DNA from: an uncultured Verrucomicrobiota bacterium
Lineage (GTDB): Bacteria > Verrucomicrobiota > Kiritimatiellia > RFP12 > UBA1067
Direction of reading: 5' to 3'
Assembly: GCA_945834475.1 (NCBI GenBank)
Contig: CAMAHK010000011.1
Coordinates: 1-45,869, forward strand
Length of the DNA: 45,869 bases
Part shown: one piece after another, positions 5,383 through 43,091 of the stretch
How the letters are laid out: each line of letters starts with the position of its first letter
How positions within the stretch are numbered: position 1 is the stretch's first letter
The notes under the pieces: model-generated
Told to the model about the DNA's origin: nothing
Databases searched by the model: none
Seen by the model: the letters and a program-made list of their open reading frames with translations, nothing else
Made by a program: the position numbers and the translations under genes

Positions 5383-7332
5383 TCACCCATTATACCACGC
5401 ATTGAGCTTCGCATTGAACTCGAGCCGTGTTCCCGTCGCCGCCCAGGACTTCACCTGCTCGGTCAGGTTCGCGACTTCCATCGTCACCTTCCGCCGCGGC
5501 ACGAACGGCGCGACGAAGAGCCAGAGAAGAACGCTCTTCACGAACGTCGGCACGAACGCCGGCGAGTCGTCGCGGCCGGCACGCGACCAGATCGAGCCCC
5601 AGAGCCCGCGCGTCCTGACGCCGATCACCTGTACGTTCGGCGGCAGCTCGCGGCAAATGTTGTAGGCGAGCTGACGCGTGCCGATGTCCTCGTACTCGGG
5701 CTCGGTCTGGATGTGTCCCGAGGGATAGAAGATGACGTTCCCGCCCGTCGCGAGCGCATTCTTGACGATGTCGCCGAGCCCCCGCGCAATCGTCGCACCC
5801 TTCGTCGACCGGTTCTTGCGCAGGTCAGGCACCGCCACCGCCCCGAGCGTCTTCAACACCTTCGGCGCAACGAAACCCGTCTTGAAGAAGCTTTCATCGG
5901 CCAGCGGCTTCAGCGGATAGCGCCAGAACTCGGCCCCGACCAGCATCGGGTCAACCATCGCGGGGTGGTTGGGGAGGACGAGAAGAGGTTGAGGTTGAAG
6001 GTTGAGGTTGACGGCGGAGGTTAGACCTTTGACTGCGACCCCGTACCGCGGTGCGTCCTCGCCCGCGGCGCTGCCAACAGCCTCTACAAGACCTCTCACG
6101 TCGACATTATACCGTCTGTGAAAGATCCAGCGGCCGACGTAGAGGAGAACCTTCGTATAGCTGAGCGCAAAGTAGAGCGGTGCGATCGCGAAGAGAATGG
6201 CCAGGAGCGCGAGGAACGCGCGGGGACCGCAGAGTGCGCTCACGCCGATGTAGACAACCGAGGCCGCGAACATGAAGAGGAACGAGACCTGGTTGAAATA
6301 GGCGAGCATCGTATTGAGACGTGGCCCCTTCACAACCTTCTGGATCTCCGCATCCAGCGGCAGCTTGAAGAACCCAAGGTCAAACGCAAGGACACCGATC
6401 AGGATCGCAAATGCCGTCGGCTTGAGCGGCACAAAGAAGAGGATTGAGAGAATCACCGCCGCGAGAAGGCCCGTGACGACCGTCCAACCCAGAAGGAAGA
6501 CCTTGCGGTCGACGAAACCGGCGAGGACCTGTCCCGCGACAATGCCAATCGCCGCCGTGCACAAGACCCCGCCCGTCGCGCTCGCCGAGAGGCCGAGCAT
6601 CTGCTTGCCGTAGACGATGAGCCCCTGCTGGAGCATCGCTGCCGCAAACCAGAAGACGGAGAGCGTGAGGATGACGGCGTTGAGTCCCGGATAGCGCAAC
6701 GTCGCCATTCGCGCGGCGCGGCGGAGGTAACGGACGGGATTGATCGCGTGGATCGTGCGGTTCGGCACCTCCTCGGCGCGAATCGTGTACGAGCCCGCGA
6801 GCCCCAGCACGGCGAACGCGACGAGCGCCCCGCAAGCCACGATTATCGGCGCACGGTCGAAGACGAAGCCCGCCGCGATCGTGCCGCCGAGAACGGCAAG
6901 AAACGCGACGCCTTCCATGCCGCCCATCCCGACTGATATCCGGTCGGCGCCGCCCACGTCGCGGACAAGCGCGTATTTCGCCGGGGAATAGAGCGAACTC
7001 TGGATTCCCATCAGGAGAATCGCCCCGACGACGCACGGAATCGACTGCGTCAGGAAGCCGACGATTGCAAGCGCGACGATCGGCAGTTCCACTCCCTTCG
7101 CGAGCCGGAGGATCTTCACCTTCGGGAAGACGACCGTCAGTCGATCTGCAAGCGGCGAGCAGAGGATGTACGGAAGCACGAGCGCCCCGGCTGTCGCGCC
7201 CATGAAAACGGAATGCAGCCGCTCGTCGGCGAGCCAACCGAGAATCACGAAACTCGCGAACGTCTTCAGGAAGTTATCATTGACAACCCCGAAGAAGTTC
7301 GTGAGGAAGAGGGAGGTGAAGGAGGGTTTCAT
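5383..7332 (-). CDS. MFS transporter fused to 1-acylglycerol-3-phosphate acyltransferase (LplT-PlsC-like)
   Basis: 649 residues. Residues 1-400 form a 12-helix major facilitator resembling lysophospholipid flippase LplT (LTNFFGVVNDNFLKTF, YSPAKYALVRDV). Residues 440-649 are a PlsC-type acyltransferase with the NHxxxxD motif (LPNHPAMVDPMLVG) and a later FYPSGHIQ block. This order matches LplT-Aas-type lysophospholipid re-acylation proteins, but the AMP-dependent synthetase domain is missing; a separate one is encoded at 38145-39827. Between the domains, residues 422-449 hold a REP hairpin and a CAACCT tract read in frame (APRYGV...NLNLQPQP). The ATG at 7332 is used; GTG 7354-7356 is the only upstream alternative. 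It follows the TetR gene by 27 nt, probably co-transcribed. Confidence 0.88.
   Translation of the reverse strand: MKPSFTSLFLTNFFGVVNDNFLKTFASFVILGWLADERLHSVFMGATAGALVLPYILCSPLADRLTVVFPKVKILRLAKGVELPIVALAIVGFLTQSIPCVVGAILLMGIQSSLYSPAKYALVRDVGGADRISVGMGGMEGVAFLAVLGGTIAAGFVFDRAPIIVACGALVAFAVLGLAGSYTIRAEEVPNRTIHAINPVRYLRRAARMATLRYPGLNAVILTLSVFWFAAAMLQQGLIVYGKQMLGLSASATGGVLCTAAIGIVAGQVLAGFVDRKVFLLGWTVVTGLLAAVILSILFFVPLKPTAFAILIGVLAFDLGFFKLPLDAEIQKVVKGPRLNTMLAYFNQVSFLFMFAASVVYIGVSALCGPRAFLALLAILFAIAPLYFALSYTKVLLYVGRWIFHRRYNVDVRGLVEAVGSAAGEDAPRYGVAVKGLTSAVNLNLQPQPLLVLPNHPAMVDPMLVGAEFWRYPLKPLADESFFKTGFVAPKVLKTLGAVAVPDLRKNRSTKGATIARGLGDIVKNALATGGNVIFYPSGHIQTEPEYEDIGTRQLAYNICRELPPNVQVIGVRTRGLWGSIWSRAGRDDSPAFVPTFVKSVLLWLFVAPFVPRRKVTMEVANLTEQVKSWAATGTRLEFNAKLNAWYNG
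5389..5397 (-). promoter_or_regulatory. Extended -10 promoter (TGGTATAAT) for the DUF2339 gene
   Basis: TGGTATAAT on the minus strand, inside the last codons of the upstream MFS-acyltransferase gene and 68 nt before the DUF2339 ATG. The same extended -10 word occurs upstream of the rpiB-glyA gene (21859) and the 66-residue membrane protein (45778), suggesting a common vegetative promoter form. Confidence 0.45.
5986..6011. repeat. CAACCT/GGTTGA tandem tract inside the MFS-acyltransferase gene
   Basis: Four units of GGTTGA with one extra A, reading CAACCT on the coding strand, translated as NLNLQPQP just before the acyltransferase domain. Related tracts: 23843, 25160, 27107, 29791, 40914, 41694. 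Confidence 0.75.
6041..6071 (+). repeat. REP-like hairpin copy A (in MFS-acyltransferase gene)
   Basis: Head CCGTA, then 5' arm CCGCGGtGCG, loop TCCT, 3' arm CGCCCGCGG (6046-6068): a 9-bp stem with one bulged T. Subtype GtGCG/CGCC. In the gene it is read as part of EDAPRYGV. Confidence 0.75.
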
Positions 7333-7359
7333 GTTTGAGTTGAAGTTAACTCTCACAAC

Positions 7360-8010
7360 TTAACTCTCGTAACTCAACCCCGAAAAGACGCTCGCAGCGA
7401 CATGCTCCGCGACGGCGTCTCGCCAAGCAGCCCGGCTCAGGCCTTTCGGACGGAACGGCTTCAGGGCCTTTTCGTCGGCGAGGGCATAGATTGTCACTTG
7501 AGACCAGATGGAGGCTGTTACCATGCCTCGCGGTGAGGTCACCGCGGGTACTTTCGGGGACGCCCTCGCGATCAGCTTCTCGAGAGCCGCGTAGACCGGC
7601 TTACCGAAGGTGTCCATGAAGGATTTGAAGAATTCCGTCGGACGCGTCACCTCTTGCCGGAAGAGTCCCGCGCAAAGCTTCTGCGCCCTTTCCGTTGGAA
7701 TCGTCATGAAGAGCATGTCGTCGATCCACTCGCGCACGGCCGCCCGCCAACTCGCCGCGTCCTTTACCTTCGCGGGAATCTCCGCGAGCGGCGCGCCGAG
7801 GTCGCCGAAGAGCCGCTGCGCGACAATCTTGTAAAGCTCGGCCTTCGACCCGAAGTAGCGGTTCGCCAGCGCCACGTTCGCCCCCGCCGCCTTGCAGATC
7901 GTCCGCACAGAGGCGAGTTCATAGCCCTTCTCCGCGAACTCGATCTCGGCCGCCGCAAGGATCGCCTCGCGCGTCTCGATACCGTCGGTTCTCTTTTTGC
8001 GTTCGTTCAT
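7360..8010 (-). CDS. TetR-family transcriptional regulator (CecR/YbiH-like)
   Basis: 216 residues. The N-terminal TetR helix-turn-helix is clear (REAILAAAEIEFAEKGYELASVRTICKAAGANVALANRYFGSKAELY, about 13-58). The C-terminal part resembles the CecR/YbiH ligand domain (WIDDMLFMTIPTERAQKLCAGLFRQEVTRPTEFF), seen in regulators of efflux and membrane-stress genes; the subfamily is inferred. It precedes the MFS-acyltransferase by 27 nt, so it probably controls that operon and itself. A perfect -35 (TTGACA, 8066-8071) and AAGGAAGG ribosome site lie upstream. Confidence 0.9.
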   Translation of the reverse strand: MNERKKRTDGIETREAILAAAEIEFAEKGYELASVRTICKAAGANVALANRYFGSKAELYKIVAQRLFGDLGAPLAEIPAKVKDAASWRAAVREWIDDMLFMTIPTERAQKLCAGLFRQEVTRPTEFFKSFMDTFGKPVYAALEKLIARASPKVPAVTSPRGMVTASIWSQVTIYALADEKALKPFRPKGLSRAAWRDAVAEHVAASVFSGLSYES

Positions 8011-8042
8011 CGCGTGCCCTTCCTTTCGTAAACACGCGATTA

Positions 8043-8071
8043 CTTTATCACATTTCCGTCCACCCTGTCAA
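8043..8071 (-). promoter_or_regulatory. Promoter of the tetR / MFS-acyltransferase operon
   Basis: TTGACA (8066-8071), a 17-nt spacer, then ATAAAG (8043-8048; TAAAGT with an 18-nt spacer). Located 33 nt before the tetR ATG, in the 92-nt gap after the purH-like gene. An eight-T run on the minus strand just after that gene (8083-8090) may serve termination, but no strong hairpin precedes it. Confidence 0.55.
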
Positions 8072-8102
8072 GCAGGAACGGAAAAAAAAGCACAGAGACT
8101 AC

Positions 8103-9401
8103 TTAGTGACGGAACGAGCGCTGGCCGGTGAAGACCATCGCGATGCCCGCGTCATTCGCGCAGTCGATGACGTCCCAGTCGCGGATCGCGCCGCCCGGCT
8201 GGACGACTGACGTGATGCCTTCGCGCAGGCCGACCTCGAGACCGTCGCGGAACGGGAAGAACGCGTCGGAGACCATCGCGCAGCCCGGAAGGCCGCCCTT
8301 CTCCGCCTTGGTCTGTTCCATGATCTCGGCCTGCTTCTTCGCGCCGTCCTCCTCGCCGAACGCGAGACAGAGGTCGTTGAAGGGCTTCTGGTACTTCTCC
8401 CACGCGATCCAGTCCGCGTGCTTCGTGTACGCCTTGTCACGCGCGATCTCGGCGACGCCGACGCGGTCCTGCTCGCCTGTGCCGATGCCGACCGTGACAC
8501 CGTCCTTCACGTAAAGGACGGAGTTCGACGTGACGCCCGCCTCGACGAGCCAGCCGAAGACGAGGTCTTCGTATTCCTTCGCCGTCGGCAGGCGGTTGAT
8601 CTTGTACTCCTTGTACGAGACCTCGCCCGTCTCCTTGTTCGTGATCTTGCGGTTGCAATAGGCCGGCATGAAATCCTCGGGCTTGCGCGCGTTCGCGCTG
8701 AACGAGGTCTGCGCGACGATGCCGCCGTCAATCAGCGACTTGAAGTCAATGACATGCTTCGCGACGAAGCTCGTGAGGCGATCCATGTTCTTGATACGGA
8801 AGACGCGCAGATTCTTCTTCGTCGCGAAGAGGTCCATCACGCCCGGCTTGAAGTCAGGAGCCACGACGACTTCGGCGTAGTTCTCGATGATGAGCTTCGC
8901 CGTCTCGAGGTCGCACTCGCGGTTGAGCGCGATCGCGCCGCCGAACGCCGCCAGGCGATCCGCCTTGTTCGCACGGAAATAGGCCTCGGCGAGCGTCGAG
9001 CCCGTCGCGACGCCGCACGGATTGTTATGCTTGACGATGACCGCGCACGGCTTGTCCATCAGATAGCGGAGAATGTTGAGCGCGTTGTCCGTATCGGTGA
9101 CGTTCGTCTTGCCCGGATGCTTGCCCGACTGCAGGAGTTCGGGAACGGACGCGAGGTACTGCCCCGGCTGAAGAATCTCGACATCGCCGAGAACGAGGTT
9201 GCCGTTCACGAGCTTGTAGAGCGCCGCCTCCTGTCCCGGATTCTCGCCGTACCGAAGCCCCTTCTCCTCGCCGCCGATGTTCCACGTCACCTTCTCGTAA
9301 TGGAACGTCTGACGATTGCCGCCGTCAATGAACGAGATTTCCATCTGCGGGGCGAAATGATCAGCTTCAATGGTCTTGTAGGCGGCCTTCAGGTCTTTCA
9401 T
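8103..9401 (-). CDS. purH: Stand-alone AICAR transformylase (PurH C-terminal domain only)
   Basis: 432 residues. It matches the AICAR transformylase domain: RYGENPGQEAALY, then IVKHNNPCGVATG with the catalytic-site Lys-His, FGGAIALNRECD and FRDGLEVGLREGITSVVQPGGAIRD near the end. It converts AICAR plus 10-formyl-THF to FAICAR in purine synthesis. The IMP cyclohydrolase (MGS-like) domain that normally precedes it, some 190 residues, is absent, and the initiating MKDLKAAYKTIEAD shows no sign of truncation. The cyclohydrolase step must be encoded elsewhere. A TATAAT box at 9439-9444 lies 38 nt upstream of the ATG. Confidence 0.9.
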   Translation of the reverse strand: MKDLKAAYKTIEADHFAPQMEISFIDGGNRQTFHYEKVTWNIGGEEKGLRYGENPGQEAALYKLVNGNLVLGDVEILQPGQYLASVPELLQSGKHPGKTNVTDTDNALNILRYLMDKPCAVIVKHNNPCGVATGSTLAEAYFRANKADRLAAFGGAIALNRECDLETAKLIIENYAEVVVAPDFKPGVMDLFATKKNLRVFRIKNMDRLTSFVAKHVIDFKSLIDGGIVAQTSFSANARKPEDFMPAYCNRKITNKETGEVSYKEYKINRLPTAKEYEDLVFGWLVEAGVTSNSVLYVKDGVTVGIGTGEQDRVGVAEIARDKAYTKHADWIAWEKYQKPFNDLCLAFGEEDGAKKQAEIMEQTKAEKGGLPGCAMVSDAFFPFRDGLEVGLREGITSVVQPGGAIRDWDVIDCANDAGIAMVFTGQRSFRH

Positions 9402-9438
9402 CAGTTACTCCTTACTGCGAGAAAAGAATTTTCCTTGT

Positions 9439-9444
9439 ATTATA
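9439..9444 (-). promoter_or_regulatory. -10 box (TATAAT) of the AICAR transformylase gene
   Basis: TTTTTGTTATAAT on the minus strand, very similar to TTTTTGGTATAAT before rpiB-glyA (21859). The predicted start lies about 30 nt before the ATG. So the long structured stretch further upstream need not be part of this mRNA. Confidence 0.5.
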
Positions 9445-9459
9445 ACAAAAATTCCCCGC

Positions 9460-10336: not shown

Positions 10337-11239
10337 TTACTTCATCAGGCCGAGATACCACCTGACGATCTCAACGCCGTAGAACATCCAGAGCAATGTC
10401 GCTAGGCATATGTACGGCCCATAGGGAATCTCGACGAACTTGCCGAACTTCGTCTTCGAGAGCGCAATCAGCGAAACGCCGATCACCGAGCCGAAGAGCG
10501 ACGAGAAGATGAGGACGAACAGAACGGCCATCGGACCGAACAACGCGCCGACCGCCCCCATCAGGAAGACATCGCCCATCCCCATCGCCTCGCGTTTGAA
10601 CGCCTTCGTGCCGAGAAGCCTGATGAGCGCAAACAGACCAAAGCCGAAGGCGAGACCCAGAAGGGACTGAATGACCGAATAACTGAATAACTGAATGACC
10701 GAATCGGGAAATTGGCGAGTTGACGAATTGGCGAATTGGTGAATCGTCACGACGCCATTCCACAAGACACCAAGGATCATGCCGCCGACGGTCATGAAGT
10801 CCGGCAGGAGCTTGTGGTCGAAGTCGATCATCGAGCCGACGATCATGAGCGAAATCCAAATCCACCAGACCGACAGATGAAACCAGTTTAGCCATCCCAA
10901 GAAAGGATCGCCCATCAAATGAAACTTCGGCTCCACGAATGCGCCAGCCGCAGCAAACACATGAATGAACGCCGCGAGAAAGAGACACCCACCGAGCGTC
11001 TCTATCAGAATGTAGCGCGGCGAGATCGGCGCTTTGCAGGTCGCGCACTTGCCGCGCAGGAAGAGCCACGCGAGAATCGGGATGTTCTGGTAGCCCTTGA
11101 TCGGCGTTCCGCATTTCGGACAGTGCGACGGCGGCGAGACAATCGACTCCCCGCGCGGCACGCGCCAGATGACGACATTGAGGAACGACGCAATGCACGC
11201 CCCGAGGGCAAACGAGAAGATGGCGAAGATCGTATTCAT
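10337..11239 (-). CDS. pilD: Prepilin peptidase / N-methyltransferase (type IV leader peptidase)
   Basis: 300 residues. It cleaves type IV prepilin-like leader peptides in the inner membrane. The N-terminal region has the zinc tetracysteine site (CPKCGTPI...CATCKAPI) expected for the methylating form; then come about eight helices with the two catalytic aspartates, in SMIDFDHKLLPD and MGMGDVFLMG. Residues 165-191 (TIHQFANSSTRQF, then DSVIQLFSYSVIQS) do not belong to the family: they are encoded by an 8-bp tandem repeat tract (10666-10746) between transmembrane segments and also found at 13709. ATG 11237-11239 is used; the longer open frame upstream runs through a REP hairpin. gpsA lies 41 nt upstream. 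Confidence 0.9.
   Translation of the reverse strand: MNTIFAIFSFALGACIASFLNVVIWRVPRGESIVSPPSHCPKCGTPIKGYQNIPILAWLFLRGKCATCKAPISPRYILIETLGGCLFLAAFIHVFAAAGAFVEPKFHLMGDPFLGWLNWFHLSVWWIWISLMIVGSMIDFDHKLLPDFMTVGGMILGVLWNGVVTIHQFANSSTRQFPDSVIQLFSYSVIQSLLGLAFGFGLFALIRLLGTKAFKREAMGMGDVFLMGAVGALFGPMAVLFVLIFSSLFGSVIGVSLIALSKTKFGKFVEIPYGPYICLATLLWMFYGVEIVRWYLGLMK
10666..10746. repeat. 8-bp tandem repeat tract inside pilD
   Basis: Units ACTGAATG, ACCGAATA, ACTGAATA, ACTGAATG, ACCGAATC are followed by AATTGGCG-like units. The same two unit types in the same order occur in the gap at 13709-13746 on the opposite strand. In pilD the tract is translated without a stop. Confidence 0.75.
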
Positions 11240-11251
11240 TGCGTGGAAACG

Positions 11252-11280
11252 CCGCGGCCGAGACGGCTCGCGGTACGGAG
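11252..11280 (-). repeat. REP-like hairpin copy D (gpsA-pilD gap)
   Basis: On the minus strand: head CCGTA, 5' arm CCGCGaGCCG, loop TCT, 3' arm CGGCCGCGG (core 11252-11273). It fills most of the gap between the gpsA stop and the pilD start. It may act as an mRNA stabiliser or attenuator there. Confidence 0.75.
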
Positions 11281-12267: not shown

Positions 12268-12289
12268 AGTGGTAGATTTCCTTTTCTGC

Positions 12290-13746: not shown

Positions 13747-14972
13747 AAAATATGTCCCATCTTCTCGCGCTTCGTGTCGAGATATCTCTTGTCGTGCGCG
13801 TTCGCCGGAATGATGATCGGCACGCGCTCGACGATTTCGAGTCCGTAGCCCTCGAGGCCCGCGATCTTGCATGGGTTGTTCGTCATGAGCCTGAGCTTGT
13901 GGATGCCGAGGTCGACGAGCATCTGGGCGCCTTCGCCGTAGTCACGGAGGTCGGGGGCGAAGCCCAAGGCGACGTTCGCTTCGACGGTGTCGAGTCCCTC
14001 CTCCTGCTTCTTGTAGGCGTGCAGCTTGTTCGCGAGCCCAATGCCGCGACCTTCCTGGCGCATGTAGAGAACGGCGCCTCGGCCTTCCTTCTCGATCATC
14101 TCCATGGCGGTGTGCAGCTGGGGACCGCAATCGCAGCGCTCGCTGCCGAGAACGTCGCCTGTGAAGCATTCGGAGTGAACGCGCACGAGGACCGGCTCGC
14201 CGTCCGCGACATTGCCCTTCACGAGTGCGAGATGTTCAAGCCCCGTCAGGCGGCTCTTGTACATTGTGAGCGTGAAGCTTCCGTGATCCGTCGGCAAATC
14301 AACCGTCTCGATCTTGTCGACAAGGAAATTCCGCCGTTCACCTTCACCTTCAACCTTCTCCTCCTGATCGCCTTTCGCCAAGCGAAAGGCGATCAGGTCA
14401 GCGATCGTCATCATCTTGAGATGATGCTTCTGCGCGAAGGCCTCGACGTCATCCATGCGGGCCATGTTACCGTCGTCCTTCATGATCTCGCAGCAAAGGC
14501 CGACTTCCTTCAAGCCCGCGAGGCGGCAGAGGTCAACCGTCGCCTCGGTGTGACCCGCGCGTTTGAGAACGCCCCCTTCGCGCGCCTGCAGCGGGAACAT
14601 ATGTCCGGGACGGCGGAAGTCCTCGGGCTTCGCGCCGTCCTTCACCGTGGCGAGCGCGGTCATCGAACGCTCGGCGGCGGAAATGCCCGTCGTCGTGTCG
14701 ACGCCGTCGATCGAAACGGTGAACGCCGTCTGGTGGTTGTCGGTGTTCGTCTGAACCATCTGCGGAAGGCCGAGCTTCTCGCACCACGCGCGGCTCATCG
14801 GCATGCAGATAAGCCCCTTCGCATGGGTCGCCATGAAGTTCACATTCTCCGTCGTCGCGAATTCGGCCGCACAGATGCAGTCGCCTTCGTTCTCACGGTC
14901 CTCGTCATCCGTGACGAGAATGATCTCGCCCTTCCGAAGCGCCTCCAGACACTCTTCAACAGTATTGAACAT
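13743..14972 (-). CDS. ribBA: Bifunctional DHBP synthase / GTP cyclohydrolase II
   Basis: 409 residues. RibB domain about 1-200 ([48 protein letters not shown]); RibA domain about 210-409 with the zinc ligands [14 protein letters not shown] and [13 protein letters not shown]. It makes both riboflavin precursors, from ribulose-5-phosphate and from GTP. The linker [19 protein letters not shown] is encoded by a perfect 16-bp inverted repeat (14363-14397) followed by a CACCTT/CAACCTT tract. ATG 14970-14972 lies 2 nt after the pyrE stop with no Shine-Dalgarno, suggesting translational coupling. Confidence 0.95.
14363..14397. repeat. Perfect 16-bp inverted repeat in ribBA linker
   Basis: CCTGATCGCCTTTCGC (14363-14378) and GCGAAAGGCGATCAGG (14382-14397) pair perfectly around CAA. 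It falls exactly between the two enzyme domains. Confidence 0.8.
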
Positions 14973-19186: not shown

Positions 19187-20140
19187 TTAAACCAAATCGC
19201 CCATGTACCCGAGCTCGGCGAGAATCTTCGGATTCTTCATCCAGTTCGGCTCGACGCGCACCCAGAGCTCCATCGCGGCCTTCACGCCGAACATCTCGCC
19301 GACCTCGCGCTCCGAACACTTGCGCACGTACTTGATCGTCTGCGCCGCCTTGCCGATCACAATCGGCTTCTGTGACGCGCGGTTGACGAGAATGTCGACG
19401 CCGATTTCCCACACGGGGAGATCCGTGCCGTTCGCAGACGTGCGCGGCGGCTTCTCGTGAATCGACTTCACGAAGACGCCGAGTTCGTGCGGGAGCTCCT
19501 GATGGAGTTTCGCGAGATACTTCTCGCGAATCGAATCAGCGATCGCGAGCTTGCGCGGATAGTCGGTGACGATATCGTCGTCAAAAAGCTTCTCGCCTTC
19601 CTCCGCAAGCTCGAAAAGCGCCTCCCCGACCTGCTTCGCCCCACCCGGAGTGGACGCGATGCATTTGATCCAAAGGGGCTCTCCGTACCGCGAGCCGTCC
19701 TCGGCCGCGGCGCTGGTAAGAGCTTCCGCCCACGCATCCCTGAACATCGTCTCGTAGAACGGCGCGCGGTCGGCCTTGTTGAGGACGAAGACCACCTTCT
19801 CGGGCTTCTCCTTCGCGATGCGCTGCATCCAACCGATGTCCTCGAGCTGCGGCTCCTGCGCGGCGTCGAAGACAACACAGGTGATGTCGGTACCCGCCGC
19901 CGACCGACGGGCCATGCGGTTCAAAAGCCGACCGAGTTCGCCGACGGCCTTGTGGAGCCCGGGCGTGTCCAGAAGCACAAGCTGCCCGCGCTCATCGGAG
20001 ACGATGCCGCGCACCGTATTGCGCGTCGTCTGCTCGACAGGCGAGACAATCGAAACCTTTTCGCCGACAAGGGCATTGACGAGCGTGGATTTACCCGCGT
20101 TCGTCCGCCCCACAATCCCCACAATCGCAACTTTAGACAT
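19187..20140 (-). CDS. era: GTPase Era
   Basis: 317 residues. G1 is GRTNAGKST (usually GRPNVGKST), G2 region VEQTTRN, G3 DTPG, G4 NKAD; a C-terminal KH domain carries VIGKAAQTIKYV. Era binds the 3' end of 16S rRNA and helps 30S assembly. Between G4 and the G5 region the usual loop is extended by residues around 143-150 (AAEDGSRYGE), encoded by a REP hairpin (19685-19716). The gene starts 2 nt after the rpiB-glyA stop, so it belongs to that operon. The hydrophobic effector region is otherwise normal. Confidence 0.95.
   Translation of the reverse strand: MSKVAIVGIVGRTNAGKSTLVNALVGEKVSIVSPVEQTTRNTVRGIVSDERGQLVLLDTPGLHKAVGELGRLLNRMARRSAAGTDITCVVFDAAQEPQLEDIGWMQRIAKEKPEKVVFVLNKADRAPFYETMFRDAWAEALTSAAAEDGSRYGEPLWIKCIASTPGGAKQVGEALFELAEEGEKLFDDDIVTDYPRKLAIADSIREKYLAKLHQELPHELGVFVKSIHEKPPRTSANGTDLPVWEIGVDILVNRASQKPIVIGKAAQTIKYVRKCSEREVGEMFGVKAAMELWVRVEPNWMKNPKILAELGYMGDLV
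19685..19716 (+). repeat. REP-like hairpin copy B (inside era)
   Basis: Head CCGTA, 5' arm CCGCGaGCCG, loop TCCT, 3' arm CGGCCGCGG (core 19690-19712): a 9-bp stem with one bulged A. Nearly identical to copy C in dnaG. Confidence 0.8.
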
Positions 20141-23842: not shown

Positions 23843-23869
23843 CTTCAACCTCAACCGCCAACCTCTACC
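23843..23869. repeat. CAACCT/GGTTGA tract in the murA-DUF4381 gap
   Basis: CTTCAACCTCAACCGCCAAC and following bases fill the 30-nt gap between the murA stop (23871) and the DUF4381 ATG. On the coding strand the unit next to the ATG (GAGGTTGAAG) looks like a Shine-Dalgarno site. Confidence 0.6.
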
Positions 23870-23870
23870 T

Positions 23871-25159: not shown

Positions 25160-25185
25160 AGGTTGAGGTTGGAGGTTGAGGTTGA
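25160..25185. repeat. CAACCT/GGTTGA tract upstream of murA
   Basis: GGTTGA GGTTGG AGGTTGA GGTTGA on the plus strand, CAACCT on the coding strand. It ends 6 nt before the murA ATG, in the orientation that offers no ribosome-binding complementarity. Confidence 0.7.
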
Positions 25186-25200: not shown

Positions 25201-26124
25201 TTAGCGTTTGCGGGCGCGACGGCGGAAGAGGGCGCGGACCTCGTTGATGTAAGGGGTTGCCGTGTCGATCGGGAGTGTATCGATCGCATGCTTGCGGAAG
25301 ACCTTGAGGAGCGCTTCGCGCTCGGCGGCGGCCTTTGCGGCGAAGGCGCGGCGCACGGCCCGGGACGAGGTGTCGACGAGCATTAGCGCACCCGTCTCCG
25401 GATCCTCCAGCTCGACAAGTCCGACATCGGGCAGCTCCGACTCGGCCGGATCCGAGACCGGCACGCAGACGAGATCGTGATGCCGGGCCGTCGCACGGAG
25501 TAGGTTCTCGGGAAGGGAACTGTTACCCGCCGCAGGCGAGACGCACCGCGGTACGGAGTTAAGGAAGTCGCTGACGAGGAAGACGACGGCCTTGCGCTTC
25601 TGCACGCCGTTCAGGAACTTAAGCGCGCCTTCGAGATCCGTGCCGCCCTCCGCCTCGTCTTCGGCCGCGAGCACTTCGCGCACGAGGCGCATCACGGAGT
25701 CGCGTCCCTTGCGCGGCGGAATGTACTTGACGATCTTGTCCGAGAAGAGGATGAGCCCGATCTTGTCCTGATTGCGAATCGCCGTGAGCGCGAGAAGCGC
25801 CGTCACTTCCGCCGCAAGCTCGGCCTTCGAGCGATGCACGGAACCGTAGCTCTGCGAACCCGACACGTCGACGAGAAAGAGAATCGTCAGTTCGCGCTCC
25901 TCAGAGAAGCGCTTGATGTGCGGGACGCCCGTGCGGGCGGTGACGTTCCAGTCGATCGTGCGGACATCGTCCCCGGCGATGTACGGACGCACTTCGTCGA
26001 ACTCGACGCCCTGTCCCTTGAAGGTCGAATGATAGTCGCCGGCCAGCTGGTCGTCAATGAGGCGGTTGGTGAGGATTCGAATCTTCCCCACCTTCGCCAT
26101 GAGCTCTTTAACGTCAATCGCCAT
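25201..26124 (-). CDS. DUF58 protein of the MoxR operon
   Basis: 307 residues. The DUF58 signature is clear: GQGVEFDEVRPYIAGDDVRTIDWNVTARTG, then a VWA-like core with LFLVDVSGS (MIDAS-type) and VVFLVSDFL. The family partners with MoxR ATPases. Around residues 192-198 the loop NSVPRCVSPAAGN is encoded by a REP hairpin (25530-25556), just after the FLVSDFL strand. Its ATG overlaps the moxR stop by one base; murA follows after 46 nt. The C terminus is strongly basic (FRRRARKR). Confidence 0.9.
   Translation of the reverse strand: MAIDVKELMAKVGKIRILTNRLIDDQLAGDYHSTFKGQGVEFDEVRPYIAGDDVRTIDWNVTARTGVPHIKRFSEERELTILFLVDVSGSQSYGSVHRSKAELAAEVTALLALTAIRNQDKIGLILFSDKIVKYIPPRKGRDSVMRLVREVLAAEDEAEGGTDLEGALKFLNGVQKRKAVVFLVSDFLNSVPRCVSPAAGNSSLPENLLRATARHHDLVCVPVSDPAESELPDVGLVELEDPETGALMLVDTSSRAVRRAFAAKAAAEREALLKVFRKHAIDTLPIDTATPYINEVRALFRRRARKR
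25530..25556 (-). repeat. REP-like hairpin copy E (inside the DUF58 gene)
   Basis: On the minus strand: head CCGTA, 5' arm CCGCGGtGCG, loop TCT, 3' arm CGCCTGCGG, with one G-U pair (core 25530-25551). Same subtype as copies A and F. Confidence 0.7.
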
Positions 26125-27106: not shown

Positions 27107-27133
27107 TCTCAACCTCAACCTTCGACCTTAACC
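27107..27133. repeat. CAACCT/GGTTGA tract at the dnaG 3' end
   Basis: TCTCAACCTCAACC, then TTCGACCTTAACC. It spans the dnaG stop codon, encoding the last residues QVKVEG, and the start of the gap before moxR. Confidence 0.6.
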
Positions 27134-29091
27134 TGACTCTGTTGTAGCCAATCTCGTATCAACTCCTTGACCGACGACCATTTTACCGAATTGAGGCGCT
27201 TCAAGTCTAGGGTAATTTTCATGCGTTTCAAATCGGCCGCCGCATCACCTGTCGCGGGCAGGGCGCCGCGGATGCGCGTCAGGTGTTCGATCCAGAGTCT
27301 GCGCACGAACTCCTCGGCGATGTCCGACACGTCCAGCGAGCTCTCGAGCGCGCGATGCTGGTTCATCAGCAGCCGGTCGAACCAGGCGCGCTCCTCCGGC
27401 GGCAACGCGTCGCTCCAGGGGGCGATCAGGTCGCCGCCCTGCGCGATTTCCGCCCGCCACGTTTCCACGAACGCCCAGGTGAAGTCGTGCGCGAAGACCT
27501 CGCGCGGCAGGAATTCGCCAATAAGTCCGTCGAGATTCTTCGCCTCTTCCGAGTATTCGTTCGCGAGCAGAAACTCGCAGAACGCCATCTCCTTCGGCGG
27601 CGGGGGCAGCACCGTCGCCGCGGCTTCGCCGGCGAGGGGCCCCGGGTCGTCATCAACCGGCTCGTAGTCGTCAAGCTCGTCATACACCGTACTGTCGCCG
27701 CTCTCGGCGACAGGCGCGGTAACAGCAGGCTGGCCAGCGCCGCGGCCGAGGACGGCTCGCGGTACAGGGCTGGGCTGCGGTACGGCCTTGACCTTCTCGA
27801 GCTCCTCGCGGAGCGCCGCGTTCGGGAGCTTCATCAGCTTCGCGACCTCCTCAAGCATCGTCGCGCGCAGGATCGCGCCCGGACACTGTGCAATGGTGAG
27901 CAAAAGCTCCTTCGTAATTCGGTTGACGGCATCGACCGAATCGGGATTCTTCTCCTTCGCGCGTTCGGCGCGCACCTGGAAGGACATGATGGACTCCGCG
28001 CCGTCAAGCATCAAGCGGAAGTCGTCCGCCGGATGGCTGCGCAGATACGAGTCGGGGTCGTCCCCGTTCGGTAGCGAGACGACGCGCACGGGAAGTTCCG
28101 CCGCGAGGCAGAGGCGGGCGGACTTGATCGTCGCCTTGTGTCCCGCCCCGTCGTCGTCGTAGACAAGCGCCACCTGGTCGGCCGCCTTCTTCAGCATCCG
28201 CACATGTTCTTCCGTAAAGGCGGTGCCCTGTCCCGCGACCGCGTTCGGGAACCCGCTCGTCTGCAGGCGGATGCAGTCAATCTGGCCTTCGCAGACGATG
28301 ACCTCGCGATTCGGCGTGCGCGTGATCGCGGCGGCGGCCTTGTCGAAGCCATAGAGGACGTTCGACTTCTTGAAGACCGCGGTCTCCGGAGAGTTCACGT
28401 ACTTGCCGGATTTCTTCGAGTCGACGAGCTGACGTCCCGAAAATCCGACGACGCGCCCCTGCTTGTCGCGGATCGAGAACATGAGACGTCCGCCGAAACG
28501 GTGGTAGCCGAGATCGCCGGGACGCGTCGGGCCCTTGATGACGCCGGCCGCCTCGAGGTCGGCCGCCGAATACCCGTACTTCTCTCCCCACTTGAGGATC
28601 GTCGCGACGCCGTTCGGCGCATAGCCGATGATGTAGTCTTTCTGAATCTTGTCGCCGAGGTCACGCTCGGTCAGGTAGGTGCGCGCGAGTTCGGCCTCCT
28701 TCGTCTTGAGAAGGCAGCGGTGATAGAACTGGGCGAGCTCCGCAAGAAGCGCGAGGAGGCGCTTGCGGCGTCCCGCCTCGGGGTCTTCCTTCTCCTCGAT
28801 CTTGACACCGCACTGGTCGGCAAGCTTCTTGACGGCCTCGATGAAGGTCAGCCCCTCGTACTTCATCACGAACTTGATGGCGTCCCCCGACTCGCCACAG
28901 CCGAAGCAATGGTAGAAGCCCTTCGTGTCGTTGATGTTAAAGGACGGCGTCTTCTCGTGGTGGAACGGGCAGCAGGCCTTCTTCGAGATGCCCGCGATCT
29001 TCACGGGAATCCCGTAGGACGAAATGAGATCGGCGAGGTCAACCCTCGCCTTGATCTCCTCGACAGTTGCGTCTGTAATGCCCGTTGCCAT
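27115..29091 (-). CDS. dnaG: DNA primase
   Basis: 658 residues. Zinc-binding domain at 35-70 (CCPFHHEKTPSFNIN...FHCFGCGESGD pattern, CHC2 type), RNA polymerase domain with RLMFSIRDKQGRVVGFSGR, TOPRIM with IVCEGQIDCIRLQ and ALVYDDDGAGHKA. The C-terminal helicase-binding domain is divergent and preceded by a long acidic linker. In that linker, residues 444-451 (PRAVLGRGAGQP) are encoded by a REP hairpin (27735-27767). It synthesises replication primers. It lies between rfbB (12 nt) and moxR, an unusual place. Confidence 0.94.
   Translation of the reverse strand: MATGITDATVEEIKARVDLADLISSYGIPVKIAGISKKACCPFHHEKTPSFNINDTKGFYHCFGCGESGDAIKFVMKYEGLTFIEAVKKLADQCGVKIEEKEDPEAGRRKRLLALLAELAQFYHRCLLKTKEAELARTYLTERDLGDKIQKDYIIGYAPNGVATILKWGEKYGYSAADLEAAGVIKGPTRPGDLGYHRFGGRLMFSIRDKQGRVVGFSGRQLVDSKKSGKYVNSPETAVFKKSNVLYGFDKAAAAITRTPNREVIVCEGQIDCIRLQTSGFPNAVAGQGTAFTEEHVRMLKKAADQVALVYDDDGAGHKATIKSARLCLAAELPVRVVSLPNGDDPDSYLRSHPADDFRLMLDGAESIMSFQVRAERAKEKNPDSVDAVNRITKELLLTIAQCPGAILRATMLEEVAKLMKLPNAALREELEKVKAVPQPSPVPRAVLGRGAGQPAVTAPVAESGDSTVYDELDDYEPVDDDPGPLAGEAAATVLPPPPKEMAFCEFLLANEYSEEAKNLDGLIGEFLPREVFAHDFTWAFVETWRAEIAQGGDLIAPWSDALPPEERAWFDRLLMNQHRALESSLDVSDIAEEFVRRLWIEHLTRIRGALPATGDAAADLKRMKITLDLKRLNSVKWSSVKELIRDWLQQSQVKVEG
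27735..27767 (-). repeat. REP-like hairpin copy C (inside dnaG)
   Basis: On the minus strand: head TGTA, 5' arm CCGCGaGCCG, loop TCCT, 3' arm CGGCCGCGG, then CGCTGG (core 27740-27762). The core is identical to copy B in era, but in dnaG it is read in a different frame and orientation (VPRAVLGRGAG). Confidence 0.8.
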
Positions 29092-29103: not shown

Positions 29104-30222
29104 TCAGCCCTTGCCGAGGCGTTGACCCGAGTAACGGCCCTGGTGAATCGGCCCCCACCACCATTCGTTGTCGAGATACCACTGAACGGTCTTCTTGATG
29201 CCCGTCTCGAAATTCTCGCGCGGCTTCCAGCCGAGCTCGTTCATAAGCTTCGACGGATCGATCGCATAGCGCAGGTCGTGTCCCGGACGGTCGGCGACAT
29301 ACGTGATGAGCGACTCGTACTTCGAACCGTCGGCCCGCGGACGGAGCTCATCCATGATCACACAGATCGTCTTGACGACCTCAAGGTTCGTGCGCTCGTT
29401 ATGTCCGCCGACATTGTACGTCTCGCCGTCGCGGCCCTTCTCGTTCACGAGCATCAGCGCGCGGGCATGATCCTCGACGAAGAGCCAATCGCGCACGTTC
29501 GCGCCCTTGCCGTAGACCGGCAGCGGCTTGCCGTCCAGACAGTTCAGAATCACCAGCGGAATCAGCTTCTCGGGGAAGTGATACGGCCCGTAGTTGTTCG
29601 AGCAGTTGGTGATCCGAATCGGCAGGCCGTACGTGTCGTGCCACGCGCGAACGAGATGGTCGGACGACGCCTTTGACGCCGAATAAGGCGAGTGCGGCGA
29701 ATAGGGGGTCTTTTCGGTGAAGTATCCCGTCTCCCCGAGCGTCCCGTACACCTCGTCCGTCGAGATGTGCTGGAAGACGAATCTACGCTTCGAGGTTGAG
29801 GTCGAAGGTTGAGGTTGAGAGGCGCTGTCATCCGGCAGAGAACGCCAGTACTTCAGGGCCGCCTGGAGCAGCGTCGCCGTGCCGGTCACGTTCGTGCGAA
29901 TAAACTCGCCCGGGCCGTCGATCGACCGGTCGACGTGCGATTCCGCCGCCAGATGGAAGATCGTATCAGGCTGGAACTCGGCGAACGCCTTGTCCATCGC
30001 CGCCTGATCGCAGATGTCGGCCTTGAGAAAGGAAAGTCGCGGATTCGACGACATCAGCGTCGCGGCATCGAGGCCGACTTCCTTCAGCGACTCGGGAACG
30101 CCCGCGTACGTGAGCTTGTCGACAACGAGAACCGACGCGTCAGTCTCCTTCAGCAGAAGTCGCGCAAGCGCACTGCCGATAAATCCAGCCGCACCCGTGA
30201 CAATACAACGCTTATTCTTCAT
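29104..30222 (-). CDS. rfbB: dTDP-glucose 4,6-dehydratase
   Basis: 372 residues, short-chain dehydrogenase fold: GAAGFIGS nucleotide site, [12 protein letters not shown], catalytic YSASK (within [12 protein letters not shown]), and the RNCSNNYGP-like block [19 protein letters not shown]. It makes dTDP-4-keto-6-deoxyglucose for deoxysugars such as rhamnose, presumably for the exopolysaccharide module upstream. Residues 131-145 ([15 protein letters not shown]) interrupt the usual loop before [13 protein letters not shown] and are encoded by a CAACCT tract. The other rhamnose genes are not adjacent. ATG 30220-30222 overlaps the kinase gene by 11 nt. Confidence 0.94.
29791..29820. repeat. CAACCT/GGTTGA tract inside rfbB
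   Basis: CGAGGTTGAGGTCGAAGGTT and following bases on the plus strand, four units with one T-to-C change, translated as [10 protein letters not shown]. Confidence 0.75.
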
Positions 30223-36801: not shown

Positions 36802-36812
36802 GCTCACTTAAC

Positions 36813-39827: not shown

Positions 39828-39829
39828 TT

Positions 39830-39856
39830 TGTGACATCCTTTCGTTTCCTGTCACA
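39830..39856. promoter_or_regulatory. Operator-like inverted repeat before the acyl-CoA synthetase gene
   Basis: TGTGACA (39830-39836) and TGTCACA (39850-39856), 7-bp arms with a 13-nt spacer that contains AAAGGA, the likely ribosome site 3 nt before the ATG region. A bound repressor here, or a hairpin in the mRNA, would block translation initiation. The protein that binds is unknown. Confidence 0.45.
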
Positions 39857-39880
39857 CAATTTACCGTTTCCCCGTTGCCT

Positions 39881-40411
39881 TTACAACGCGGGATTCTCAA
39901 ACTCGCGGACGACGTCCAGCAGGACCTCTGCCAGATCGGGATCCGCCTCGAAAATGTTCACATTGTCCGAATAAGTCGTATTGCTCAAGTTCGCCTTCAC
40001 ACCGATGAACCGCTTCGTCTCATCCTTCTTCGAGCTCTTGCCGTTCTTCTCGCGGTCCAGGACCCCGTGGTTGACCAGCGTCTGGAAGATGTCGTTCGCA
40101 TCCTTCGGACTGATCTGCAGCCGGAACGTCTTGATCTTCGACCAATCCTCGCTCTTGTGCCGCTTCGCAAAATCGTTCGAGACGAGCTCACTCGTCCCCT
40201 TCTTCACCAGCACCAGCCCGTTGCCGTAGATCTCGACCCCGATCCGCCGCACCGGATCGCGGTTCAGGTTGTAATAGTGGATGATCACCCAGTTGAGCGA
40301 TGACTCCTTCACCGTGATATACGGGTCCACCCAAAACGGCCCGCAACCCGTCACCGTGAAGAGTGAACAGGTTATAGTGAATAACATCAAAAGAGTCCAA
40401 AGTCTTCTCAT
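39881..40411 (-). CDS. Lipoprotein of unknown function
   Basis: 176 residues. MRRLWTLLMLFTITCSLF, then VTGCGP is a lipoprotein signal with lipobox VTGC. The mature part is a small mixed fold (VDPYITVKESSLNWVIIHYYNLNRDPVRRIGVEIYG pattern) rich in charged residues, without catalytic motifs I recognise. Much of the signal-peptide core is encoded by TTCACT-like repeated units near 40360-40395. ATG 40409-40411 follows the coaX stop by 14 nt with GAGGTGATGG upstream. Confidence 0.7.
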   Translation of the reverse strand: MRRLWTLLMLFTITCSLFTVTGCGPFWVDPYITVKESSLNWVIIHYYNLNRDPVRRIGVEIYGNGLVLVKKGTSELVSNDFAKRHKSEDWSKIKTFRLQISPKDANDIFQTLVNHGVLDREKNGKSSKKDETKRFIGVKANLSNTTYSDNVNIFEADPDLAEVLLDVVREFENPAL

Positions 40412-40425
40412 CGTCCCATCACCTC

Positions 40426-41235
40426 TCAAACCTTTCCCCCCGCCGCTATCAGACCCGTTCCGTACAGCGTGAGCGTCGGATCGATGACGAACGGCAGGTC
40501 GAGGGACTTCAGAGCCCATTTCGCAAAACCGCCCGTCGCCACAAGCTTAAAATTCGTCTTGAAATTCTTCGTCAGTTCAGCAACGATCTCACGAACCATC
40601 CCGCGATAGCCGACGAGAGCCCCGAAACGCATCGCCTCCTCGGTTGACCGCCCGATCTTCGGCGCCTTGCCGGTACCAAGTTCCATTCGCGGCAACTTGG
40701 CCGTCCGCTCAAAAAGGTAGTCGCGCATGAGCGGAAAACCCGGCGCAATCACGCCGCCGCGCCAGACGCGATCCGCTGTCACAACCGCCGCCGTGAGCGC
40801 CGTGCCGAAGTCCATCACCAGAACCGGTGCCCCATATTGCGAAACTGCCCCCACCGCATCGGCGAGACGATCCGCTCCGATGGTCTCAGGCTGCGGGTAG
40901 TCGAGGGTGATGAAAGGTTGAGGTTGAGGTTTGAGGTTGACGGCAGCGGGCGGTTTCTTTCTTGTCGCGCCAAAGTCATCGCAGGTGACTTGATGAAACG
41001 TCACCCCGAGCTCCTTTGCGAGGGCTCGCCACTTCCGATCAACCTTCGGCACCACCGACACATACCCCATCGGTAGGGCGCACACTCCGGGTGCGCCGCC
41101 CCCAACCAACTCGCGCACGACGCGCGACGCGCCTTCAAAGCCGTCGTCACAGTGCGCAACATGACTCACGCGGCCGTCGGACCAGAGTCCCACGGCCGTG
41201 GAGGTGTTGCCCACGTCGACGACGACCAGCCTCAT
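40426..41235 (-). CDS. coaX: Type III pantothenate kinase
   Basis: 269 residues. ASKHA fold: VVDVGNTSTAVGL (phosphate 1), DYPQPETIGADRLADAVGA, VLVMDFGTALTAAVV and APGFPLMRD. It phosphorylates pantothenate, the first step of coenzyme A synthesis, and is not inhibited by CoA. Residues 93-110 (PPAAVNLKPQPQPF) before LDYPQPET do not belong to the family and are encoded by a CAACCT tract. ATG 41233-41235 overlaps the preceding gene by ATGA. Confidence 0.93.
   Translation of the reverse strand: MRLVVVDVGNTSTAVGLWSDGRVSHVAHCDDGFEGASRVVRELVGGGAPGVCALPMGYVSVVPKVDRKWRALAKELGVTFHQVTCDDFGATRKKPPAAVNLKPQPQPFITLDYPQPETIGADRLADAVGAVSQYGAPVLVMDFGTALTAAVVTADRVWRGGVIAPGFPLMRDYLFERTAKLPRMELGTGKAPKIGRSTEEAMRFGALVGYRGMVREIVAELTKNFKTNFKLVATGGFAKWALKSLDLPFVIDPTLTLYGTGLIAAGGKV
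40914..40940. repeat. CAACCT/GGTTGA tract inside coaX
   Basis: AAAGGTTGAGGTTGAGGTTT, then GAGGTTGA on the plus strand, four units with one extra T, translated as VNLKPQPQP. The following CCGTCAACC junction resembles that in the MFS-acyltransferase gene. Confidence 0.75.
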
Positions 41236-41690
41236 TTGCAAAGGCGAAGCTGCTGGTCGCAGAACGTGCGGACGTAGTCTTCCGAGGCGCCCGCCTTCGC
41301 ACGCTTGAGCGCCGCCACCCAGAGCGGACGCGCCTGCGCCGCCTTCGGGCAGCCCGGCGTCATCACGAGCTGCGTCACCGCCGCGATCTGCGTCAGCACG
41401 ATCGGATCGCCGTCATAGGCGGAACCGACCTGCGCCAGCAGGGCGTCGGCCGCGGCAGCGCTGGCGACAAAGCCCGCCAGAACCTTCGGCTCGGTCGCCG
41501 CACGCACGGCCGCAGGATTCGCCTGCTGCCACTCGTAGGCCATCTGATAGCCGTCCTGATGCGACATCGCCGGACCGTAGTCGGCGAACGCCGTCGCCGT
41601 CGAGGGCTGAAGCCCCGCCTTCGGCGAATAGCTCGCGCAGCCGACGCCGCCAAGGGCCAGAACAGCCGCAGAAAGAAGTCTAATCATCAT
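41232..41690 (-). CDS. Small lipoprotein of unknown function
   Basis: 152 residues. MMIRLLSAAVLALGGVGC gives a lipoprotein signal (lipobox GVGC). The mature protein is largely helical with two Cys near the end (CDQQLRLCK). It overlaps coaX by 4 nt. No known family recognised. A GGAGG in the GGTTGA-like tract (41694-41725) supplies the ribosome site. Confidence 0.7.
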   Translation of the reverse strand: MMIRLLSAAVLALGGVGCASYSPKAGLQPSTATAFADYGPAMSHQDGYQMAYEWQQANPAAVRAATEPKVLAGFVASAAAADALLAQVGSAYDGDPIVLTQIAAVTQLVMTPGCPKAAQARPLWVAALKRAKAGASEDYVRTFCDQQLRLCK

Positions 41691-41693
41691 ATG

Positions 41694-41725
41694 TCAACCT
41701 CCACCTCTTATCTCAACCTCATCTC
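41694..41725. repeat. CAACCT/GGTTGA-like tract upstream of the 152-residue lipoprotein gene
   Basis: TCAACCTCCACCTC, TTATCTCAACCTC: degenerate copies filling the 35-nt gap. On the coding strand GGAGGTTGAC lies directly before the ATG and would act as ribosome site. Confidence 0.5.
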
Positions 41726-43051
41726 TCACCCGAACATCTCCGTGCGCCACGGTTCGCGCATCATGTCCTCCTGGTAGAGGAAGCGCTCGGCCGCCGGATC
41801 GTTCTTCGCATGAAGCGTGTCGGGATCGAACTCGAAGCCGCGCCCGAGGCGCCACGCGACGATCGCAAGATTGAACATCGACGACGACCGGAAACCATTG
41901 CACTCGTTCAGGGCGAATGTCTTGCGGTTCAGGCAGCTGTCGATGAAGTCCGTCTGCTGCGGCGCCGGCTTCGGCAGGTCGGCGAGCGTCTTGAGGACCT
42001 TCTCCTCACTCCACCAGCCGTTCGCGTCCTTGATGCGCAGCGTCTTGCCGTCCTTCGCCTTCTTGTAGACGCAAAGGCCGTTCGATCCGCGCAGAAGCGG
42101 CTCCTCGCGCAGCGAGACGTCGCCGTCGAGAATCACCTCCGTGCCGTCCGCGTACGTGAGCGTGAAACGGTCGAAGCTGCCGACCGCCTCCGGATGCTGG
42201 GCAAGCCCCTTGTAGTCGATCTTCACCGGCGAGGTCTCGTCCTTGCAGAGGAGGTACTGCAGCGGATCGAGATAGTGCTGCGCCATGTCCCCGAGCCCGC
42301 CCGAGTCGTAGTCCCAGTAGCCACGGAACGACGTGCCGAAACGATGGTCGGAATACGGCTTCCACGGCGCCGGACCGAGCCACATGTCCCAGTCAAGCCC
42401 CTGCGGCACGACCTGGGCGTGATCCTGCACGCGCCCGGACCAGCCGAACTTCCACGAGAAGCCCTGGCCCTCGCCGAACACGCACTTGATCGGACCCTTG
42501 CCCAAAAGCCCGTTCTCGACGATCTGACGGATCGGCTCGACCGGCGTGCCGAAGCCGTAGAACGTGTCCTTGAAGCGGAACCACGTGTTGAGGCGGAACA
42601 TCCGCTTCTTGGCCTGGACGACCTCCATGACGCGACGGCCCTCGCCGACCGTGCGAGTCATCGGCTTCTCGCACCAGACGTCCTTGCCGGCCTGCGCCGC
42701 CATCACGCTCTGAACGCCGTGCCAGTGCGGCGGCGTACAGATGTGGACGATGTCGACGTCCTTGTCCGCCAGCAGCGCAAGGAAGTTCTCGTACGCCTTC
42801 ACCTTACCCCAGCCCGCCTTCTCGGCGGCCGCAAGGCCGGCCGTCACGCGCGGTGCATACGGATCGCACAGACCGATTAGGCGCGAGCCCTTGAACGGCA
42901 GGTGATTCTCGCTATGCGCAATGCAGCCGAAGCCGATGAGCGCACGCGTCAGCTGGTTCGAGGGCGCCGTCGCCCCCCACAGCACCTTCGCCGGCACAAT
43001 ATTGAAGACCCCGAAAGCCCCCGCCGTCTTAATAAAAGTTCTTCTATCCAT
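41726..43051 (-). CDS. Gfo/Idh/MocA-family oxidoreductase with Tat-type signal
   Basis: 441 residues. Begins MDRRTFIKTAGAFGVF, a twin-arginine-type leader. The Rossmann part has LIGFGCIAHSENHL (variant of GxGxxG), then WCEKPMTRTVGEGRRVM with the EKP motif, and YWDYDSGGLGDMAQHYLDPLQY typical of the exported subfamily in Planctomycetes and Verrucomicrobia. Such proteins oxidise or reduce sugar rings with bound NAD(P). Next to a DUF1080 protein it may form a 3-keto-glycoside step. GGAGG 7 nt before the ATG belongs to the repeat/REP junction at 43052-43090. Confidence 0.9.
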   Translation of the reverse strand: MDRRTFIKTAGAFGVFNIVPAKVLWGATAPSNQLTRALIGFGCIAHSENHLPFKGSRLIGLCDPYAPRVTAGLAAAEKAGWGKVKAYENFLALLADKDVDIVHICTPPHWHGVQSVMAAQAGKDVWCEKPMTRTVGEGRRVMEVVQAKKRMFRLNTWFRFKDTFYGFGTPVEPIRQIVENGLLGKGPIKCVFGEGQGFSWKFGWSGRVQDHAQVVPQGLDWDMWLGPAPWKPYSDHRFGTSFRGYWDYDSGGLGDMAQHYLDPLQYLLCKDETSPVKIDYKGLAQHPEAVGSFDRFTLTYADGTEVILDGDVSLREEPLLRGSNGLCVYKKAKDGKTLRIKDANGWWSEEKVLKTLADLPKPAPQQTDFIDSCLNRKTFALNECNGFRSSSMFNLAIVAWRLGRGFEFDPDTLHAKNDPAAERFLYQEDMMREPWRTEMFG

Positions 43052-43060
43052 TGTCAACCT

Positions 43061-43091
43061 CCGTACCGCGGTGCGTCCCCGCCCGCGGCCT
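43061..43091 (+). repeat. REP-like hairpin copy F (gap before the Gfo/Idh gene)
   Basis: Head CCGTA, 5' arm CCGCGGtGCG, loop TCCC, 3' arm CGCCCGCGG (core 43066-43088). Directly next to TCAACCTC (43053-43060), repeating the neighbourhood of hairpin and CAACCT tract seen in the MFS-acyltransferase gene. Confidence 0.75.

Follow-up and report, generated by a model that had tools for sequence, protein, structure and literature searches.

The 45,869-nt window analysed here, an entire contig (CAMAHK010000011.1) of the 2.57-Mb draft genome (134 contigs, 85.5% complete) of an uncultured gut bacterium of the Kiritimatiellia (phylum Verrucomicrobiota), carries six copies of a short hairpin that belongs to a family of roughly 300 copies, and more than half of the classified members of this family are read in frame within open reading frames (ORFs). 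We consider it likely that the hairpins constitute a species-specific family of repetitive extragenic palindromic (REP) elements and of REP doublets forming hairpins (REPINs), which is mobilised by a REP-associated tyrosine transposase (RAYT) and tolerated in coding DNA.

A dispersed hairpin family

A covariance model, trained on the six window copies themselves, scores these at 48-56 bits and the next place in the window at 12.5 bits, in agreement with a preliminary description of this DNA that had listed six REP-like hairpins. In each copy a GTAC head leads into a 9-bp stem, bulged at one base, that closes a loop of 3 or 4 nt; three copies are of an AG type and three of a GT type, one of the latter with a G-U pair. 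Stem, loop and types are as first described, except that the supposedly common head CCGTA is found in five copies only and reads CTGTA in the copy at 27735. The positions originally given for the copies are corrected here as to strands and ends, with three copies on each strand (Table 1). Six copies per 45.9 kb is about the average density of the genome, and no Rfam family matches at its gathering score anywhere in the window.

In the genome as a whole, loop-specific patterns allowing up to 3 mismatches find 166 places with the 4-nt loop and 170 with the 3-nt loop (the two sets may overlap), far above the control with reversed patterns, which find 1 place each. Against this control, counts at chance level, one of the findings named beforehand as refuting, were not obtained. 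The covariance model search suggested with the preliminary description likewise reveals a large family, with at least 150 matches at E up to 1, every candidate scored being a match. The DNA of this genome that was examined comprises 122 merged stretches (467,056 bases of the 2.57 Mb), picked around 150 covariance model matches, the places listed for the 3-nt-loop pattern and four places from the 4-nt-loop list (C111 and C127 were omitted from 42 further stretches), and it contains 301 copies at up to 4 mismatches. In size and number, a 20-40 nt imperfect palindrome in more than 100 dispersed copies, the element resembles a REP. Among 345 genomes belonging to the class, the pattern is matched exactly in this one alone, and a covariance model search of 57 relatives gave no match among up to 118 candidates scored per genome. 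In view of the draft state of the assembly one might suspect hairpins that arose by chance in GC-rich genes, or artefacts of fragmentation, but this is hardly credible given the reversed-pattern control, as well as flanks that differ between copies inside conserved genes.

The preliminary description had further concluded from compensatory changes that the structure is selected and not due to chance. From the window alone this does not follow, as just a single pair varies in both partners and the covariation score is attained in 27 of 500 shuffles. In the examined DNA, however, the 301 copies comprise 94 distinct cores, among which the inner stem pair reads G-C 56 times and C-G 28 times, this pair being the only free test of covariation because the collection pattern fixes most other stem bases. 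Furthermore, three stem types can be told apart by the position of the bulge, with the third (GCC/GG) bulging at another place. Together, the exchange of G-C for C-G and the third stem type support a conserved hairpin. Within this wider family the core is followed by tails such as CGTCTCCAAG or CGGGTAACAG.

Placement in genes

Coding DNA was called by a codon score with a fixed threshold, from a model trained on the examined DNA of this genome and not by a gene caller, and a copy was classed as in frame if its coding flanks share one frame and this frame is open through the element. After exclusion of copies at an edge, 294 copies were classified, of which 168 (57%) lie in frame through ORFs; the element thus behaves as a REP without being chiefly extragenic. 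The remainder consists of 64 copies with one coding side, 20 on the same strand in another frame, 18 without a coding side, 13 in the same frame with a stop and 11 between opposite strands. The in-gene share is that of random placement, since 1740 of 3000 random 39-nt placements in the same DNA (58%) are in frame as well (p = 0.80).

The phase analyses below use 157 of the 168 in-frame copies, those with up to 3 mismatches, which are spread over 99 ORFs in both orientations (74 plus, 83 minus). A random draw of 40 from the 79 complete ORFs outside the window was scanned for domains, and 19 of these score above an NCBIfam cut-off, including dxs, tsaD, gltX, panC, recD2 and hydF; there are four copies in dxs and two in queA. 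The assignment of four window copies to in-frame positions inside era, dnaG, the DUF58 gene and the MFS-acyltransferase-like gene is borne out, with clear coding scores for all four host ORFs, and the picture of a dispersed, REP-like element with compensatory subtypes, in frame in core enzymes, extends well beyond the window.

One further host is of separate interest: a 579-aa ORF (L078:1049-2785; C1:98709-100445, plus strand) passes the NCBIfam cut-off for IspH with its N-terminal part and that for UppS with its C-terminal part, and is a possible fusion. It bears a REP copy at residue 173.

Inserted residues and protein loops

Judged by alignments and structural comparisons, the in-frame copies seem to add extra residues to loops. 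In Era, aligned for 28 of 33 loci (L061, L064 and the distant L071-L073 were omitted), the insert site is a loop of variable length and 0 of the 28 relatives have these residues; the nearest named relatives are metagenome-assembled genomes (MAGs) of Kiritimatiellae, Verrucomicrobia and Lentisphaerae, many of them from animal guts according to their titles. A structure model of Era, for which 27 of the loci were used (mean predicted local distance difference test score, pLDDT, 74.7, a modest confidence), bears on the suggested location in surface loops and places the insert at a helix end and in the coil 146-155 ahead of a strand. In DXS, two inverted pairs of copies occupy two linkers of variable length, both of which coincide with gaps in the solved DXS structure 2o1s, and the inserts are absent from the 27 relatives compared. 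The DUF58 loop varies in length over 29 relatives, 0 of which have the inserted residues. Relatives sharing the same residues at the same sites, the finding that had been named as speaking against insertion, were therefore not encountered in any of these three proteins. In addition, the TsaD insert coincides with a break in the alignment to solved chains, and the PanC and GltX inserts fall in gapped, weakly aligned stretches relative to solved chains.

The absence of the inserts from orthologues also bears on the alternative that in-gene copies are retained for a function, either of the hairpin on the mRNA (stability, pausing) or of the peptide in the protein. The conserved hairpin and the biased phases described below would be in keeping with such a function, but the hosts are unrelated proteins, both orientations occur, the Era, DXS and DUF58 orthologues manage without the inserts, and the in-gene share equals that of random placement; functional retention is thus unlikely.

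Other repeats have been found at the same loops. In the congener G002, a hairpin-forming repeat unrelated to the REP family is present in both DUF58 and DXS (87% alike over 55 nt). Its DXS copy occupies the linker that holds a REP pair in the source genome, and the folding of the repeat is equalled or surpassed by 6 of 200 shuffles. Yet another repeat is common to the Era of MAG RGIG2266 and the DUF58 of G030 (92% alike over 96 nt). As a separate observation, Era genes of named relatives (L065 2423-2456 and L066 2424-2489; also L047 and L048) have additional repeat peptides at this loop, namely TGTTGILPV-type peptides from ACTGGGACAACGGGC repeats and peptides of the RVESGELRVESE type.

Frame choice and pair length

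The core is free of stops in all six frames with either loop, and the frames are used very unequally. Five of the 12 frame/loop classes, those with at most 2 Arg, account for 133 of the 157 copies, leaving 24 for the other seven. When only the minus strand is considered, 2 of 6 classes take up 64 of 83 copies: those with a 3-nt loop read AGETHRGT in 43 of 44 cases, and the 39 with a 4-nt loop read either AGEDAPRYG (21) or PRARTHRGT (18), with phases split 18/21/0. Plus-strand copies without stop-bearing tails still lie in low-Arg classes in 40 of 44 cases.

A bias of this kind could also be set by the target, if the element used an insertion motif with a preferred codon position; that the bias is present in each orientation leaves room for this idea. 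It is nevertheless improbable, because the loop length shifts the phase whichever end of the element is held fixed (a single phase for nearly all 3-nt-loop minus copies, two for those with a 4-nt loop), and a fixed target phase therefore fails to explain the pattern. The same bias renders very unlikely the proposal, suggested by the location of hairpins inside conserved genes, that ribosomes skip the hairpins or that the RNA loses them, giving proteins without the extra residues. Mobile bypass elements are present in some yeast mitochondria and would provide an analogue, but skipping or removal has no need of a stop-free, frame-keeping, Arg-poor reading, and yet the phases are strongly biased; moreover, few copies shift the frame (a crude rule picks out 11 of 33 borderline copies, including some that are plainly intergenic).

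Pairs show a further bias, in length. Neighbours less than 120 nt apart are arranged head-out in 41 cases, compared with 14 head-in and 18 tandem, which corresponds to the over-represented inverted pairs with short spacers of a REPIN. The core-to-core length is divisible by three in 25 of the 31 head-out pairs of the pattern set and in 35 of 44 pairs in the examined DNA, where the length of the spacer offsets the summed lengths of the loops (permutation p <= 5e-5). As the pairs are mostly in genes, the triplet length may stem from purifying selection acting insertion by insertion, and not be a property of the mobile unit itself. A triplet length of non-genic pairs (5 of 5 at first) was dropped as an argument, as only two or three of these pairs look non-coding on inspection.

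A RAYT-like gene among the copies

The genome has 10 Y1_Tnp-like places, 7 of them above the cut-off and the one at C1:14.2 kb below it. At this last place (C1:14.1-14.8 kb), a 222-aa ORF, L075:1712-2380 on the minus strand, is flanked by inverted REP copies at 14029-14056 (minus, 35 nt off) and 14788-14814 (plus, 27 nt off), with more copies around, so that a Y1/HUH transposase gene stands between copies as is characteristic of RAYT linkage. Inspection by eye finds NHLH and a later Tyr, which we take to be the motifs of these enzymes. From its position between inverted copies, the RAYT-like transposase probably copies the REP family. The hairpins would then be short, non-autonomous palindromic DNA, copied by the HUH/Y1 enzyme and inserted into genes and intergenic DNA alike. 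A copy within a gene would persist as long as the frame is preserved and no stop is introduced, and would be favoured in a length-variable loop or linker and with a peptide that is not Arg-rich; persisting copies would be translated in the cell as extra, nearly neutral loop residues, with purifying selection determining which lengths and phases are left.

Several points weigh against this interpretation. The transposase scores 20.7 bits for Y1_Tnp, below the Pfam cut-off of 23, and its best solved relative is the TnpA_REP structure 4er8 at E = 0.14, which is why it is called RAYT-like here. Among the genomes compared, no sister strain with an empty site was found. Contrary to a simple Arg rule, minus-strand copies with the 4-nt loop use the three-Arg frame PRARTHRGT 18 times, and the tail CGGGTAACAG puts a TAA into one plus frame, so that the plus-strand bias is partly avoidance of stops. 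The length statistics count pairs related by descent as independent. Finally, pairs in the congener G008, which are rarely in genes, are mostly of one fixed length, and 8 of 12 are at 0 mod 3; triplet length alone is thus no proof of life in genes.

The window itself contains a 380-aa ORF (2231-3373, minus strand) that matches Y1_Tnp with 32.4 bits, above the Pfam cut-off; the nearest copy of the REP family is at 6039.

A second family and a congener

A second family (GACGCGACANGAGTGTCGCGTCCC), unrelated to the first, occupies 113 places at up to 3 mismatches and flanks a different Y1_Tnp gene, located on C17. It too is found within genes, with 31 of 61 copies in frame, and 9 of its 13 pairs are at 0 mod 3 (p = 0.014). 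One of its copies lies near the end of the window (Table 1), in an ORF that is presumably nadC. By contrast, the RAYT-linked family of G008 has 2 of 40 copies in frame, compared with 762 of 2000 placements drawn at random from its loci (p = 5e-11 relative to the source-genome family and 3e-6 relative to the random placements in G008 loci; the copies were scored with a codon model retrained on G008 and the random placements with that of the source genome). The in-gene habit was accordingly dropped both as the property of one element, the second family being alike, and as a feature of every congener; it follows the organism and not one element, with one tested congener lacking it.

In the congeners G008 and G014, Y1_Tnp genes are flanked by palindromic repeats of their own, which differ from those described here (L218 931-1066 and 1775-1869; L235 856-990 and 1472-1567).

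Relation to known elements

Intragenic REPs are already on record, mostly from Opitutus terrae and Rickettsia conorii, those of the GTAG type being most numerous in O. terrae (Di Nocera et al., 2013; PMC3733652), so that the novelty claimed in the preliminary description was overstated. Opitutus terrae, of the same phylum, resembles the present case in REPs and dimers that are read in frame within ORFs, in complementary stem subtypes, in RAYT genes flanked by REPs and in having more than half of its inserts as dimers or groups (PMC3733652). The head here is GTAC and not GTAG, and the element lacks the mark of the GTAG super-family, a GTAG tag that stands unpaired at the end and is degenerate at its second and third positions. 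The in-gene share of the source genome, 57% of the classified copies, is at the random level. Rickettsia palindromic elements (RPEs) are described as palindromes carried in frame by numerous unrelated protein genes, which tolerate the additional residues (PMC3733652). In-frame palindromic inserts in unrelated protein genes are what is found here, without membership of the RPEs being claimed: the organism is unrelated, a RAYT-like gene stands among the copies, and the likeness is one of placement.

REPINs with RAYTs are likewise known (Bertels and Rainey, 2011; PMC3116915), with inverted REP pairs as a unit and REPs flanking a RAYT gene, as here. In P. fluorescens SBW25, however, only 14 of 1,067 16-mers overlap genes (PMC3116915), whereas in the source genome in-gene copies predominate and pair lengths preserve the frame. 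The excerpts of PMC3733652 and PMC3116915 contain no mention of an in-gene share equal to random placement, of loop and spacer lengths matched to the frame, of a bias against Arg-rich frames or of unrelated repeats reusing the same loops, and a literature search that had most subscription journals outside it found no report of REPs in Kiritimatiellae. The kind of element is thus known from Opitutus terrae and Rickettsia, and its extent and recurrent landing sites look new.

A bolder proposal, which we regard as possible though somewhat doubtful, is that this lineage hosts palindromic mobile elements with coding DNA as their normal habitat. Their loop and spacer lengths would be matched so that pairs are multiples of three, their peptides would be Arg-poor and genes would be no worse a target than spacers, and the repeated hits on the same Era, DXS and DUF58 loops by unrelated repeats across species would represent a recurring source of new protein loops. 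In any case, protein-coding palindromes become countable, as the examined part of one genome holds 168 in-frame insertions from a single family, and the second family alongside, together with a congener whose REPs mostly avoid genes, makes comparison possible. The system allows tests of where proteins accept insertions, of which element traits suit life within genes and of the contribution to loop evolution, and annotators could flag AGETHRGT, AGEDAPRYG, VPRCVSPAAG and VPRCVLARG as repeat-derived peptides.

Features of the window

The coordinates of the copies and of their host ORFs are collected in Table 1. The name MFS-acyltransferase, carried over from the preliminary description, depends on the two Pfam matches just below their cut-offs (Table 1). 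Copy 2 starts directly after the gpsA stop codon and is intergenic if the downstream gene begins at the ATG near 11239.

Table 1. Hairpin copies and host ORFs in the 45,869-nt window.
Feature	Position	Strand	Description
Copy 1	6039..6074	+	GT type, 4-nt loop; antisense to, and in frame in, MFS-acyltransferase-like ORF; encodes GSAAGEDAPRYGV, residues 428-440
Copy 2	11246..11280	-	AG type, 3-nt loop; flanked by gpsA and a gene for type IV leader peptidase
Copy 3	19681..19715	+	AG type, 4-nt loop; read in frame within era; encodes TSAAAEDGSRYGE, residues 142-154
Copy 4	25524..25558	-	GT type with G-U pair, 3-nt loop; in frame in DUF58 gene; encodes NSVPRCVSPAAGN, residues 189-201
Copy 5	27735..27769	-	AG type, 4-nt loop; read in frame within dnaG; encodes SPVPRAVLGRGAG, residues 441-453, outside Pfam domain matches
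Copy 6	43059..43094	+	GT type, 4-nt loop; intergenic
Second-family copy	45425..45448	-	1 mismatch; in frame near ORF N-terminus, residues 37-44
MFS-acyltransferase-like host ORF	5383..7356	-	657 aa; two Pfam matches just below cut-offs
GTPase Era host ORF	19187..20140	-	317 aa
DUF58 protein host ORF	25201..26124	-	307 aa
DNA primase DnaG host ORF	27115..29091	-	658 aa

Dispersed repeats of the GGTTGAGG type are also present in the window, at 5986-6011, 23845-23870, 25160-25185, 27109-27134, 29793-29820, 40896-40949 and 41694-41719. The first of these, near copy 1, is translated within the MFS-acyltransferase-like ORF (AVNLNLQPQP).

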